A stretch of 20,700 nucleotides of DNA from the IMG/VR virus record IMGVR_UViG_3300012920_000356, positions 1 to 20,700 of that record. One strand, 5' to 3'. The notes under the pieces are model-generated. The model saw nothing but the letters and a program-made list of their open reading frames with translations, did not search any database and was not told where the DNA came from. The stretch is from a virus. Position 1 is the first letter of the stretch. Every line of letters starts with the position of its first letter. Shown here in pieces: positions 15,162 through 20,190 of the stretch. The translations under genes and the position numbers were made by a program.

Positions 15162-15451
15162 TGCCATCAAAGAAAGACCCTAGATTAGCTAGAGCAGGAG
15201 TATCAGGTTTTAATAAACCTAAACGTACTCCTAATCACCCTAAGAAGTCTCATATAGTAGTAGCCAAAGAAGGAAGTAAAATTAAAACTATTAGATTTGG
15301 TGAAAAAGGAGCTAAAACTGCAGGTAAACCTAAAGCAGGTGAGTCAGCTAGAATGAAAGCTAAACGTAAATCATTTAAAGCTAGACACGCAAAGAATATT
15401 GCTAAAGGTAAAATGTCTGCTGCTTATTGGGCTAATAAGGTCAAGTGGTAA
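15161..15451 (+). CDS. Conserved basic phage protein upstream of terL
   Basis: This 96-residue basic protein has the blocks ARAGVSGFNKPKRTPNHPKK, SHIVVAKEGSKIKTIRFGEKG and FKARHAKNIAKGKMSAAYWA, ending NKVKW. I recall this family from marine cyanophages and other environmental phages; its function is unknown. The conserved SHIVVAKEG...IKTIRFG strand pair and the FKARHAKNI...MSAAYWANKVKW end suggest a small zinc-free nucleic-acid-binding fold, which is inference from charge alone. Both ends are TAATG overlaps, coupling it with the 40-residue protein and with the terminase large subunit. Confidence 0.78.
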   Translation: MPSKKDPRLARAGVSGFNKPKRTPNHPKKSHIVVAKEGSKIKTIRFGEKGAKTAGKPKAGESARMKAKRKSFKARHAKNIAKGKMSAAYWANKVKW

Positions 15452-17106
15452 TGAACGTAACTGTTAAGGACTGTAAAGATGATTTAAAAATCTTTACATG
15501 GTATATCTGGAAACACTTAGGATTACCAAGACCTACTGACGTTCAAATCGATATAATGGATTACCTACAACATGGAGGCGATAGAATTATTATCGAAGCC
15601 TTTCGTGGAGTAGGTAAATCTTATCTAACAAGTGTTTATGTTCTTTGGAGGCTTTTCAATAACCCTGAAGAAAAATTCCTCATTGTATCTGCTTCTAAAA
15701 TCAGGGCTGATGAGTTCTCCATTTTTACTAAAAGACTTATTAATGAAGTAGATATATTAGCTCCATTGCGAGGAGGACATAGAGACTCTAATGTAGCCTT
15801 TGATGTAGCGTCCTCAGGAGCTTCTCACGCTCCTTCTGTTAAGTCAGTTGGTATAACAGGTCAGTTAACAGGTAGTCGTGCTTCAGAAGTAATTGCAGAC
15901 GATATAGAAGTAATCTCAAATTCACTTACAAATGATATGAGGGCTAAACTTTTACATAGATGTGGAGAGTTTGAATCAGTTTTACTTCCAGGAGGTAAGA
16001 TTAAATACTTAGGTACTCCTCAAAACTATGAAACAATTTATAATAAACTAGCAGAAAGAGATTATAAACTACGAATATGGACTGCTCGTATGCCAGAGGC
16101 AACAAAAATAATTGATTATAATGGTTGTCTTGCACCTATGGTTTTAAATTCAAATAAAGAAGTAGGCGAACCTATAGACCCTATGAGATTTGATGATGAT
16201 GATTTAAATGATAGAGAAAGTAATATGGGAAGGTCTACATTTAAACTACAATTTATGTTAGATACTTCATTAACAGATGAAGACAGATTTCCATTAAGAA
16301 CTACAGATTTAATTGTTATGGATACTGATGGAGAAAGAGCTCCTATAAGTCTTCAATGGGGAGCTGGTAAGTCTAATTGTATAGAAGATATACCTACAGT
16401 AGGAATGGGCAATGATGCTTGGTATAGTCCTATATTCATATCAGAAGAATGGTCAGAATTTGAAGGGTCAGTTTTAGCTATAGACCCTTCTGGTAGAGGA
16501 GCTGATAATACTGGATACGCAGTAGTAAAAACTCTACATGGAAAGCTATATGTAACTGCCTTAGGAGGAATCCCAGGAGGGTACTCTGATGGTGCGTTGC
16601 AGAAATTAGCTAATATAGCAAAAAAACACAAGGTTAATGCAGTCTATCTAGAAGCAAACTTTGGTAATGGTATGTTTACCAAGTTATTCACACCTTTTCT
16701 AGTTAAGACTCACCCTTGTACAGTTCAAGAAGCTACAGTAAAAGGACAAAAAGAAGTGCGTATTATAAATACTCTAGAGCCTGTAGTTTCAGGACATAGG
16801 CTAGTGATTAGTCGTGAAGTAATCGAGAGGGACGCAGAGATTTCTAGAGACCCTCTTGAATACTTTCATTCCTTTGGCTATCAATTCACTAGAATTAACA
16901 GGTCTAAAAGGTCTTTAAAGCATGATGATGTTATAGATGCTCTTTCATTAGCAGTAGAATATTGGCAATCAGTATTAGCTACTGATGAAGATAGAGCAGT
17001 AGAACAACATAAACTTGACTGGATATTAGAAGAAATGGATAAGTCTACTGAATGGCTTACACATGGTCATAATACGTCTAAACCTTTAAATTGGACAGGC
17101 ATTTAA
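15451..17106 (+). CDS. Terminase large subunit (T7 gp19-like)
   Basis: This 551-residue DNA-packaging motor has both domains. ATPase: Walker A AFRGVGKS (50-57), as in T7 gp19, and Walker B EVIADDIE (about 143-150). Nuclease: the acidic AIDPSGRGADNTGY (Asp near 344), VYLEANFGNG (Glu near 400) and HDDVIDALSLA (491-501). It pumps concatemeric DNA into the procapsid and cuts it. Length is close to T7 gp19 (586). The ATG overlapping the previous stop (TAATG) is preferred over the GTG two codons earlier. It is the last gene of the late operon, as in T7, where the genome end follows shortly after. Confidence 0.95.
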   Translation: MNVTVKDCKDDLKIFTWYIWKHLGLPRPTDVQIDIMDYLQHGGDRIIIEAFRGVGKSYLTSVYVLWRLFNNPEEKFLIVSASKIRADEFSIFTKRLINEVDILAPLRGGHRDSNVAFDVASSGASHAPSVKSVGITGQLTGSRASEVIADDIEVISNSLTNDMRAKLLHRCGEFESVLLPGGKIKYLGTPQNYETIYNKLAERDYKLRIWTARMPEATKIIDYNGCLAPMVLNSNKEVGEPIDPMRFDDDDLNDRESNMGRSTFKLQFMLDTSLTDEDRFPLRTTDLIVMDTDGERAPISLQWGAGKSNCIEDIPTVGMGNDAWYSPIFISEEWSEFEGSVLAIDPSGRGADNTGYAVVKTLHGKLYVTALGGIPGGYSDGALQKLANIAKKHKVNAVYLEANFGNGMFTKLFTPFLVKTHPCTVQEATVKGQKEVRIINTLEPVVSGHRLVISREVIERDAEISRDPLEYFHSFGYQFTRINRSKRSLKHDDVIDALSLAVEYWQSVLATDEDRAVEQHKLDWILEEMDKSTEWLTHGHNTSKPLNWTGI

Positions 17107-17130
17107 GGACTTATACGCCAGTTTAACATG

Positions 17131-17164
17131 CTCCCTATTAGGGGAGAAGGGACTTTAAAGTCCC
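17131..17164 (+). terminator. Twin hairpins after terL, possible late terminator or processing site
   Basis: Two stem-loops lie 25 bases after the terL stop. The first is CTCCC-TATTAG-GGGAG (17131-17146). The second is GGGACT-TTAA-AGTCCC (17149-17164), which as DNA is a perfect 16-bp palindrome. Only a short AT tract (ATTTAG) follows, not a clean T run, so an intrinsic terminator is plausible but weak. RNA processing or a packaging-related signal is also possible. Confidence 0.5.
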
Positions 17165-17183
17165 ATTTAGTTATAGTTATAAA
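17155..17183 (+). promoter_or_regulatory. Possible sigma70-like promoter for the riboswitch cassette
   Basis: TATAAA (17178-17183) lies 17 bases after TTAAAG (17155-17160), a poor -35. Transcription would start near 17190, just before the riboswitch at about 17202. Only the placement argues for it, and the -35 falls in the preceding palindrome. Confidence 0.25.
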
Positions 17184-17201
17184 CTACTACTTTAGATTTA
17201 A

Positions 17202-17257
17202 CTCGTTCAAGTCTTGAAAGACTCGGAAGTACCTGTAAAGTGCAGGGAAGGAACGCC
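17202..17257 (+). promoter_or_regulatory. Glutamine riboswitch (glnA / Downstream-peptide type)
   Basis: The stretch folds as a three-way junction. P1 is CGTTC (17204-17208) with GAACG (17251-17255). P2 is AGTCT-TGAA-AGACT (17210-17223). P3 is CCTG (17232-17235) with CAGG (17243-17246). The unpaired bases are the tell-tale ones: CGTTCA, then CGGAAGTA between P2 and P3, then GAAGGAACGC. As I recall them, these are the conserved core of the glutamine-binding glnA and Downstream-peptide RNAs of cyanobacteria and marine metagenomes (CGUUCA / CGGAAGUA / GAAGGAACGC). A short peptide gene starts 20 bases further on, the arrangement that named the Downstream-peptide motif. A hairpin TAACT-TGGAG-AGTTA (17258-17272) places the ribosome site GGAG in its loop, so ligand binding probably controls translation start. 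The match is to a remembered consensus. Confidence 0.85.
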
Positions 17258-17274
17258 TAACTTGGAGAGTTAAG

Positions 17275-17331
17275 ATGGAAGTTACCTTTAATTACAGAGG
17301 TGTTACTTACGTTAAAAAGATTAATAAGTAA
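17275..17331 (+). CDS. 18-residue 'downstream peptide' with YRGVxY motif
   Basis: The peptide is MEVTFNYRGVTYVKKINK, with GGAGAG 5 bases before the ATG. It lies directly behind the glutamine riboswitch and ahead of a terminator hairpin, so it is the only gene of that cassette. Short reading frames in this position are the hallmark of the Downstream-peptide motif. The YRG(V)xY core resembles the conserved YRG motif of the cyanobacterial/viral DUF4278 family as I remember it. The function is unknown. By analogy with small glutamine-synthetase inhibitors under glutamine riboswitches in cyanobacteria, it may act on host nitrogen metabolism, but no such similarity can be shown from 18 residues. 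Confidence 0.72.
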   Translation: MEVTFNYRGVTYVKKINK

Positions 17332-17344
17332 CTTAAAAATACTT

Positions 17345-17373
17345 GGGAGTATTTATTTACTCCCTTTAGTGTG
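17345..17373 (+). terminator. Terminator-like hairpin closing the riboswitch cassette
   Basis: A perfect 7-bp stem, GGGAGTA (17345-17351) and TACTCCC (17358-17364), with a 6-base loop is followed by TTTAGTGTG. It begins 14 bases after the stop of the 18-residue peptide. The U tract is short, so efficiency is uncertain, but the position and the stem are as expected for an intrinsic terminator. Confidence 0.6.
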
Positions 17374-17507
17374 TTTTGCAAAACTCTTTCAAAATTTATT
17401 AAAAAAATCTGAATGGTTTAATTTTATTGTGAATTTTTAAAATTTCCCCTTCGAAGAAAATTTTGCGATTTACAATAATTAAAATGGCAAAAATACAAAT
17501 TTGTAAT

Positions 17508-17529
17508 TTCCTTCAAAGTTCCTTCAAAG
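17508..17529. repeat. Short tandem repeat, 2 x 11 bp
   Basis: TTCCTTCAAAG occurs twice head to tail (17508-17518 and 17519-17529), followed by a partial TT. It lies in the AT-rich gene-free stretch. Two copies are too few to suggest a function. Confidence 0.8.
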
Positions 17530-17619
17530 TTGTAGTTTTTAAAAATTAAATGACAATATTGTAAGACCTCAAAAAGATTGAAAGTTCATTAAGTTCATTT
17601 TATAATGAACAAGTTGAAC

Positions 17620-17645
17620 GACGACAGCACGTCATTATTTTTTTT
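17620..17645 (+). terminator. Weak terminator-like hairpin with T8 run
   Basis: GACG-ACAGCA-CGTC (17620-17633) is followed by ATTA and a run of eight T (17638-17645). The stem is only 4 bp, so it is a weak candidate. It sits just before the first palindromic repeat and could insulate the early region from read-through. Confidence 0.35.
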
Positions 17646-17652
17646 CTAATAA

Positions 17653-17680
17653 TTATAAAAGGTAGACATTGTCTACTTTT
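17653..17680. promoter_or_regulatory. Palindromic element copy 1 (operator-like)
   Basis: The 15-bp perfect palindrome GTAGACATTGTCTAC lies at 17662-17676 with A-rich left and T-rich right flanks. The surrounding 28 bp (17653-17680) are repeated identically 46 bp downstream. It lies about 80 bp before the -35 of the first early promoter. A binding site for a dimeric regulator is the simplest reading. Confidence 0.8.
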
Positions 17681-17698
17681 AAGAAATTCGAATCCCTT

Positions 17699-17726
17699 TT
17701 ATAAAAGGTAGACATTGTCTACTTTT
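17699..17726. promoter_or_regulatory. Palindromic element copy 2 (operator-like)
   Basis: This is the second copy of the 28-bp block, with core GTAGACATTGTCTAC at 17708-17722. It lies 46 bp (about four to five helical turns) from copy 1 and 34 bp ahead of TTGACG. Paired sites upstream of a promoter are a usual layout for an activator or for a looping repressor. Confidence 0.8.
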
Positions 17727-17756
17727 TAGATACTTAAAAGTTTCTTTGTAGATTGC

Positions 17757-17785
17757 TTGACGTATGCCATTTATTTTATTACGTT
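17757..17785 (+). promoter_or_regulatory. Putative sigma70-type early promoter
   Basis: TTGACG (17757-17762) and TACGTT (17780-17785) are separated by 17 bases. The -35 matches TTGACA at five of six positions. The -10 keeps the TAnnnT frame but is otherwise poor. It follows the two palindromes and precedes the first early gene. The start point would be near 17792, which bears on the choice of start codon for that gene. Confidence 0.5.
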
Positions 17786-17891
17786 CTTAATAATGAAAAT
17801 TACAAATGACAATTCAGCTAATACAGACACCAATTTAGAGTTGGTTGCCAATACAGTTTTGGCAGGCTCTATTAATAAGGAAAATTGTATT

Positions 17892-18359
17892 ATGAAGACT
17901 AAAAATGAAATTGTTAAAATCGCTACTGCTGAGGCAAGAGTTGTAATTGGATTAGCAAAGGGTGAAATCCGAGGCGTTAAAGATATTGCTAGTAAAGTTA
18001 AAGAATCAAGCAAATCGGTTAGCCAGCAAGAATACTTAATCAAGGAAATTTGGAAACAAGCTAAAGTCCAAATGATGAGAGAGTATTTAAAAGGCGTTGA
18101 TAAGCCTTCAGTAAAATTACTTAAGGCTGACGAAGTCGCTAAAAAGGAATATTCTAGAGTAAATAAAATTATCTCTAGAGTAAAAGAGGAATTAGGCTTG
18201 AAAGATAATAAAACTAAAAAGCCTGTTGATATGGTACAAAAATCAATCGACACTCTTTATAAATTATTAGAGGCTGAAGAAATGCAAATTGCTAATGAGA
18301 AACAACTAAAAGAAATCAGCGATTATCTAAAGAGGGTTGCGAAAATTAACAGAAAGTAA
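17892..18359 (+). CDS. Unrecognised basic helical early protein
   Basis: This 155-residue Lys/Glu-rich protein opens MKTKNEIVKIATAEARVVIG and contains VKDIASKVKESSKSVSQQEY, a long charged helix region, and a LEAEEMQIANEKQLKEISDYL end. It looks wholly alpha-helical with no membrane span, and no family is recognised. The start at 17892 is preferred because AAGGA lies 10 bases upstream. An in-frame ATG at 17793 (188 residues) has no ribosome site and would sit at the predicted transcript start. The ~100-base leader carries a 7-bp hairpin (17845-17865). It is the first gene after the paired palindromes and is closed by a strong terminator, so it forms a single-gene unit. It might be the regulator that binds the palindromes, but no DNA-binding motif is clear. 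Confidence 0.68.
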   Translation: MKTKNEIVKIATAEARVVIGLAKGEIRGVKDIASKVKESSKSVSQQEYLIKEIWKQAKVQMMREYLKGVDKPSVKLLKADEVAKKEYSRVNKIISRVKEELGLKDNKTKKPVDMVQKSIDTLYKLLEAEEMQIANEKQLKEISDYLKRVAKINRK

Positions 18360-19269: not shown

Positions 19270-20190
19270 GTGTGTATAGCAATCATTAAACCTAGTGGCA
19301 TTCCATTGCCAAGTGAGGATACTTTGCATTTAAGTTTTTGTGCAAACTCTCATGGAGCTGGACTGTCTACTGTGTCAGAAGATGGTGGGTTTATGATTAG
19401 TAAAGGTTACTTCGACTTCGACGAATACTATTCAGCATTGAAACAGTATGTGTCGACTGATAACCTTGCGTTTCTGCACATGAGAATTGCTACTCATGGA
19501 AATGTGGATAAAGGCAACTGCCACCCATTTCCTGTGTGTGATGATTATGGGCTGATGAGGTATGATGAAATAGATAATGCTGACATGGTGTTCATGCACA
19601 ATGGTATGTTATCTATTGATACCGATAGCAAGGAAGTATCAGATACTATGACATTCAACAAGATGTTATATATGGGTGGAGTGAATCCTTTCAATCATAG
19701 AGCCAAAGCATTGATTGAAGAAATCATAGATGGGAGTCGTATTGCATTCATGAAAATGGATACAAATGGTACTCCTATCTATCGGAAGTATGGTGAGGGG
19801 TGGATTAAAAGTGATGGGGTGTGGTATTCTAACTACTCTTATTGTAATCCATTATATCCTACTCCTACTTCTACTAAAGTAACTTATGGTGGGTATGGTT
19901 TCGGTAACTATGCCTTCGAAGTAGAAGACTTGATGCCTGATGAGGTAGAGTGTGTGGCTTGGGGAGAGTGTCCAAGTACTATGCAGACTCTAGACTCTAA
20001 TCATGTGTGTAAGTCTGCCAAGCTAGACTACAGTAATATAGTCAAGTGGTTACACAAAGCAAGTGCTGACGAGTTAAGGCTGAGTGGCATGAGTCAGCAG
20101 TTTATTGTCGAGTGGCAAAAAGTACAGAAAAGTAGACAATGTCTACCTATTGTGAAAGGAGTAAATAAAAATGGAAGCGTCAGCGTATAA
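19270..20190 (+). CDS. Class II glutamine amidotransferase (Ntn-hydrolase), GTG start
   Basis: This 306-residue protein has an N-terminal Gn-AT_II domain. Cys2, exposed once the initiator Met is removed, is the nucleophile (MCIAIIKPSG). NSHGAG lies at 26-31. HMRIATHG (70-77) gives the Arg and His that hold glutamine, as in HTRWATHG of GlmS. FMHNG (108-112) supplies the oxyanion hole, and SDT (124-126) supplies the Asp. It would release ammonia from glutamine. The last ~100 residues are not a GlmS isomerase or other synthetase domain, so the acceptor enzyme must be separate, perhaps the next gene. The GTG start is fixed by the need for Cys at position 2, with AAAGGAAGGA upstream. Palindrome copy 5 lies before it, and copy 6 lies inside its 3' end. 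Use in DNA-base, nucleotide or peptide modification is possible. Confidence 0.85.
   Translation: MCIAIIKPSGIPLPSEDTLHLSFCANSHGAGLSTVSEDGGFMISKGYFDFDEYYSALKQYVSTDNLAFLHMRIATHGNVDKGNCHPFPVCDDYGLMRYDEIDNADMVFMHNGMLSIDTDSKEVSDTMTFNKMLYMGGVNPFNHRAKALIEEIIDGSRIAFMKMDTNGTPIYRKYGEGWIKSDGVWYSNYSYCNPLYPTPTSTKVTYGGYGFGNYAFEVEDLMPDEVECVAWGECPSTMQTLDSNHVCKSAKLDYSNIVKWLHKASADELRLSGMSQQFIVEWQKVQKSRQCLPIVKGVNKNGSVSV
20132..20146. promoter_or_regulatory. Palindromic element copy 6 (centre A)
   Basis: GTAGACAATGTCTAC is the same 15-bp palindrome with the central base A rather than T. It lies inside the last codons of the amidotransferase gene (reading SRQCL) and 24 bp before the next start, followed by CTATTGTGAAAGG as in copy 4. 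Confidence 0.78.

Follow-up and report, generated by a model that had tools for sequence, protein, structure and literature searches.

A predicted type 1 glutamine riboswitch ahead of an 18-codon YRG-type gene in a marine T7-like phage

Introduction

The locus considered here raises the question of whether a T7-like phage carries an RNA that senses the glutamine of its host, and of what the very small gene directly behind that RNA would then be doing. The window, by which we mean the whole stretch analysed, is the entire 20,700-base IMG/VR virus record IMGVR_UViG_3300012920_000356. The original prediction placed a glutamine aptamer in front of an 18-residue peptide at the junction of the late and early genes. 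The aptamer family, the conservation of the ORF and the gene order can be read from sequence, and the reading that we consider probable is that a minimal protein of the DUF4278/YRG type, encoded by the last late gene, has a type 1 glutamine riboswitch in its 5' leader.

Identity of the aptamer

17202-17259, plus strand: type 1 glutamine riboswitch aptamer (RF01739), stems P1-P2-P3, core CGGAAGUA / GAAG, from a covariance-model match

A cmscan of the window matches RF01739 over the full model (1-53), with 49.9 bits against a gathering cut-off of 35 and E = 2e-8 (4227 families, both strands), and with E = 2.2e-10 when the search is limited to 17150-17380, where the original prediction had proposed looking for glnA. 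P1 is formed by 17204-17208 and 17251-17255 and P2 by 17210-17214 and 17219-17223; P3 is present as well. The aptamer had been described as glnA/Downstream-peptide, and the glnA or type 1 half of that description stands, with its core and three stems; RF01704 (now Glutamine-II; Downstream-peptide/type 2) has zero matches in the window record, and the type 2 reading was rejected on that ground. Matches to mir and snoRNA families in the same scan fall short of their own cut-offs and are due to palindromic repeats or to chance.

Related viral aptamers were gathered with a search pattern in which P1 and the core are set and P2 and P3 are free to vary, and at least 120 viral contigs carry it. In 116 distinct viral aptamers among the matches listed, the outer positions of P2 and P3 are paired in fractions of 0.909 and 0.914, as against 0.615 and 0.518 in controls with swapped partners, and the pairs vary widely in type, a sign of covariation; P1, being fixed by the search pattern, is uninformative in this respect. 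From the model match and these stems, membership of the RF01739 family appears virtually certain, and glutamine would be the ligand by family membership.

The phage and the position of the cassette

15445-17106, plus strand: terL (terminase large subunit), the last large late gene ahead of the cassette (PHROG phrog_38, E = 1.5e-105)
17149-17164, plus strand: hairpin GGGACTTTAAAGTCCC with a weak T tail, 5' of the cassette (terminator-like scan)
17345-17364, plus strand: terminator-like hairpin at the end of the cassette, GGGAGTATTTATTTACTCCC TTTAGTGTGT (terminator-like scan)
17578-17606, plus strand: weak sigma-70-like promoter TTGAAA-17-TATAAT (11/12), 3' of the cassette and aimed at the early genes

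The genes run in the order tail, T7 gp14-like protein, tail lysozyme domain, small genes and terL, followed by an early-type region. The virus is a T7-like phage, as had been predicted, by its PHROG TerL match, a T7 gp14-like match that scores below cut-off, and the T7-type RNA polymerase encoded on the 38.8-kb contig of a relative. The cassette lies between the end of terL (17106) and the first early genes, with terminator-like hairpins on both sides; this arrangement, too, agrees with the original prediction. The stretch 17000-17900 contains 5 hairpin-plus-T sites where shuffles would give 0.3, and GGGGTAA/TTACCCC hairpins resembling 17345-17364 are seen by eye 3' of the site in the relatives L003 and L005. 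Promoter-like sites are no more frequent than in shuffles, which makes the promoter call at 17578-17606 a weak one. The position of the 18-aa ORF after terL, before the terminator and upstream of the sigma-70-like early promoter suggests that it is the final gene of the late (packaging) transcript, from which we infer late expression.

The same position would suit an aptamer that steers transcription, choosing between termination and readthrough from late into early genes with the small ORF secondary: late and early genes meet at the cassette, and a terminator-like hairpin (17345-17364) follows the ORF immediately. We think this unlikely, since that hairpin is about 90 nt past the aptamer, with the ORF in between, the ORF has been kept at the protein level (see below), and the characterised glutamine riboswitches switch on expression of the ORF that follows (PMC6316151).

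A 15-bp palindrome, GTAGACANTGTCTAC, occurs six times (17662, 17708, 18430, 18670, 19230 and 20132) where 0.04 would be expected, always in the part from the terL cassette to the right end. In a relative (G001/L252) its place is taken by TATGACANTGTCATA, present eight times, and L005 has GTTGACANTGTCAAC; we read these as operator-like sites, the centre being constant and the arms differing by lineage. In L003 (4280-4345; G001 34441-34512) the P2 stem of the aptamer is replaced by that phage's own repeated palindrome, TATGACANTGTCATA. Proteins resembling class II glutamine amidotransferases are also encoded near the glutamine riboswitch (window 19270-20190; G001 28920-29777 and 31688-32629); they begin with MC at the N-terminus, match Pfam GATase_4 under its cut-off and are nearest to proteins of Methylophilales phages.

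The 18-codon ORF and its relatives

17264-17267, plus strand: ribosome-binding site GGAG, 7 nt 5' of the ATG (from sequence, position computed)
17275-17331, plus strand: 18-aa ORF MEVTFNYRGVTYVKKINK, ATG at 17275 to TAA at 17331, with a single YRGxxY motif, conserved behind the aptamer

The predicted tiny gene with its own ribosome site is thus present, and its YRG-type motif is kept in relatives. Behind the aptamer, L002 (TerL 100% identical) encodes MEITFNYRGVTYVKKIDR, and L003 and L004 (TerL 85%) encode MEVTLNYRGQTYKKTIKKS and MEVTLNYRGSTYKKTIKKS, respectively; aptamer and peptide occupy the same genomic place in all three, the L004 aptamer scoring under the Rfam cut-off. Similar peptides of 16-20 aa follow the aptamer in L017, L020, L027, L039, L047, L074, L081 and L104, and at least 12 viral contigs, from phages of several types, have single-motif YRG peptides of this size behind a type 1 aptamer. 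Among the matches listed, a YRG ORF follows 28 of the 115 viral aptamers with a clear start. The terminase of L104 is T7-type, 57-68% identical to those of Roseobacter/Pelagibacter-type phages, L017 and L039 have a different terminase/portal block, and the 33-kb contig in which L081 lies encodes a 732-aa protein (a portal, judging by size and position) with no match in deposited phages; with such differing terminases and portals, the peptide-bearing contigs are not a single lineage.

Codon comparisons were made between pairs of these ORFs. L020 and L027 differ by three synonymous and no replacement changes and L017 and L027 by six and one, with 0, 1 and 7 L017-L027 changes at the first, second and third codon positions; diverged pairs in general change mostly at third positions, and the window-L002 and L003-L004 pairs have too few differences for such a signal. 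By this codon pattern the ORF is conserved as protein.

The cousin phage L005 (TerL 80%) has no cassette, and a different ORF of 107 aa occupies the slot, so the cassette is dispensable and its site an exchangeable accessory slot. BLASTN of the intergenic region or the cassette against deposited phages gave nothing meaningful. A decaying host-derived fragment (moron) with no present function would fit the absence from L005 and the single motif, and is nonetheless distinctly improbable: the diverged relatives L002-L004 keep every part of the cassette intact (aptamer core, stems, ribosome site, YRG motif), and phages unrelated to them have the mini form again.

Most viral glutamine aptamers (L011-L130, among the matches listed) precede short basic proteins of other kinds, 26-65 aa long, in a few recurring families such as MNRFDHLHK..., MKTKNNWQLVLI... 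and MTYRPFSWKRF...; some of these have look-alikes in SAR86 or Pelagibacteraceae genomes.

Relation to DUF4278

The phage ORFs behind the aptamer carry one to three YRG motifs. Several phage YRG proteins of 54-60 aa pass the DUF4278 (PF14105) cut-off, with a best E = 5e-7; the 20-21 aa relatives give no DUF4278 match, and the 18-aa peptide is shorter than the 20-aa minimum of the search. The comparison with DUF4278 proposed in the original prediction proved apt, the YRG motif being common to the peptide and to the longer phage proteins that match PF14105. The window peptide has both the YRGxxY motif and the association with a glutamine riboswitch, as in DUF4278. Because the longer YRG homologues match DUF4278 and the literature ties that family to glutamine riboswitches, the peptide is, on sequence comparison, best described as a minimal, single-motif DUF4278-like peptide.

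Cyanobacterial glutamine riboswitches lie mainly upstream of DUF4278 proteins, activating their expression, and both riboswitch types are tied to such proteins, including IF17, in which the N-terminal DUF4278 part stabilises the protein and is dispensable for function on glutamine synthetase (PMC6316151). That dispensability means that glutamine synthetase inhibition cannot be assumed for a YRG-only peptide. The basic C-terminal inhibitory region of IF7/IF17 has no counterpart here, as the 18-aa product ends just past the YRG motif. For DUF4278, a comparison with solved structures gave nothing beyond chance matches.

Among deposited phages, a 45-aa YRG protein finds matches exclusively in phages of Prochlorococcus and Synechococcus and in viruses from marine single cells; in the four cyanophages checked, RF01739 lies just upstream, over its cut-off in DSL-LC02 and P-SSM2 and slightly below in P-SSM7 and S-SRM01. 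In all four, a second aptamer-like core (CGTTCA ... GACGCA...AAGGAACG) comes after the first glutamine aptamer (L255 802-961, L256 771-960, L257 801-977, L258 798-959, for P-SSM2, P-SSM7, S-SRM01 and DSL-LC02). It encloses an ORF of 49-59 codons, which is thereby nested inside an aptamer upstream of the YRG gene, with the two sides of P2 at either end of the nested ORF; by eye these can pair in 4/4, with differing pairs, and collapsed folds support two.

Distribution in bacteria and the host

Bacterial genomes scanned with the same pattern gave matches in cyanobacteria, marine alphaproteobacteria, SAR86 and other gammaproteobacteria. As read from sequence, the ORFs behind these matches are DUF4278 and IF7-like proteins in cyanobacteria, and ammonium transporter-like and glutamine synthetase-like proteins in marine alphaproteobacteria. 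In the SAR86 order, DUF4278-like proteins occur in 10 of 81 genomes, and the nine stronger matches are all directly behind RF01739 (the weakest, L297, was left out of the RF01739 scan); one DUF4278-like protein of a Porticoccaceae assembly is likewise directly behind RF01739. DUF4278 was found in none of 115 sampled alphaproteobacterial genomes, a sample not confined to marine ones, so an alphaproteobacterial donor was rejected as not supported.

Loci of the SAR86 order (L289-L295; for example L290 1299-1436) have in aptamer stem P3 a conserved insert of about 80 nt, GGAAGATAGGAAAACCT...AGCAAGTACC...GGGAACGAGACCGAATATCTACC, which includes a variable hairpin and has no Rfam family match; it is possibly a nested second RNA domain.

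TerL and portal are nearest to those of Rhizobium, Roseobacter and Pelagibacter phages (Alphaproteobacteria), at 45-50% identity, and the RNA polymerase on the relative's 38.8-kb contig is 32% identical to those of Pseudomonas phages. One small protein is near a Verrucomicrobia phage and the GATase-like protein near Methylophilales phages; inspection of the window and the 38.8-kb relative, short of a gene-by-gene search, revealed no cyanophage hallmark gene. RF01739 is absent from 12/12 tested deposited marine autographiviruses related by TerL. DUF4278 would point to cyanobacteria or SAR86 as possible hosts, and the structural proteins are nearest to those of alphaproteobacterial phages.

Switching and proposed mechanism

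17198-17212, plus strand: predicted anti-ribosome-site arm, overlapping the 5' strand of P1 and pairing with 17260-17273 when P1 is open (minimum-energy fold)

In the lowest-energy fold of the window, pairing of 17198-17212 with 17260-17273 hides the ribosome site (unpaired 0.07-0.10), and forcing P1 frees it (0.56-0.63), an opening matched by 3/300 shuffles. In the L003 and L004 folds the start codon remains in a hairpin and the anti-ribosome-site arm of the window is absent. Across the 115 viral loci among the matches listed, forming P1 has no consistent opening effect on the ribosome site (a mean change of -0.01, with p = 0.16 relative to shuffles), so that a general ON-switch model for all phage aptamers is not supported. 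With the arm absent from L003/L004 and no net effect over the 115 loci, the ON switch is a prediction for this phage alone. The modelled fold is in line with what is known of the family, whose members act as ON switches, and we take the ON direction to be rather likely; that the aptamer regulates the 18-aa ORF is very likely.

At low glutamine, then, the leader arm 17198-17212 would pair with the ribosome site and keep the peptide off; glutamine would close P1, free the GGAG and turn translation on. This suggests that the virus makes its tiny protein only when the host cell is rich in glutamine. The peptide, probably through its YRGxxY motif, might then act on the glutamine/nitrogen-assimilation machinery of the host in late infection, a role that we infer and put forward tentatively. 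A riboswitch that still senses glutamine but works through the translation of a leader peptide, the peptide itself having no part in it, is highly improbable: 18 codons fit the size, but no gene lies between the ORF and the terminator-like hairpin, substitutions favour third positions, and the motif is common to phage proteins of 36-61 aa and to DUF4278 proteins.

Should the peptide be produced and behave as the riboswitch-effector reading proposes, the virus would read host nitrogen status by RNA and answer with an effector of 18 residues, and DUF4278, a domain of unknown function, would gain a natural version smaller than any other and easy to work with experimentally. With the mini-peptide recurring in several phage types and YRG proteins lying behind glutamine riboswitches in SAR86, the range of these riboswitches extends past the cyanobacteria, to which a published statement confines them, and a layer of nitrogen control in ocean phages that has been little explored comes into view. 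A bolder idea, possible but doubtful at present, is that marine phages of unrelated kinds have time and again taken up a single-motif YRG micropeptide under glutamine control, with which they rewire the nitrogen assimilation of the host in late infection; YRG/DUF4278 peptides would then be a general effector module of glutamine riboswitches in cyanobacteria, SAR86 and marine viruses.

Comparison with known systems

The original prediction regarded a metabolite sensor of this kind in a T7-like phage as unusual. Glutamine riboswitches are not rare in phages, given the viral contigs counted above and the cases published from SAR11 and OM43 phages (PMC9004378) and T4-like cyanophages (PMC9602691, PMC9964418). 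Since tiny peptides behind glutamine aptamers have also been published, with Downstream-peptide RNAs preceding ORFs of 17-100 aa (Weinberg 2010, PMC2864571), the kind of element is already known. A literature search with incomplete journal coverage found no report of T7-like phages with a glutamine riboswitch, nor of any phage with a single-motif YRG peptide.

The locus resembles known type 1 glutamine riboswitches (glnA motif, RF01739) in its full-length model match, core, three stems and small DUF4278-type ORF behind, and differs in belonging to a T7-like phage with an expression platform of its own and a ligand assigned by family. With type 2/Downstream-peptide RNAs (RF01704) it shares a tiny conserved peptide ORF after a glutamine-aptamer-like RNA, but the aptamer here is type 1. 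DUF4278 proteins (PF14105, including the IF17 N-terminus and PMM1846) have the same YRGxxY motif, two or three times in about 57 or more residues as against once in 18 here, and the phage peptide is without the glutamine synthetase-inhibiting part of IF17. Closest in setting are the marine-phage glutamine aptamers of Melnitz, Mosig and AG-345-P14 (PMC9004378) and of the T4-like cyanophages; those, however, are in myophages (at the tmRNA locus in Melnitz) or T4-like cyanophages, whereas the phage described here is T7-like.
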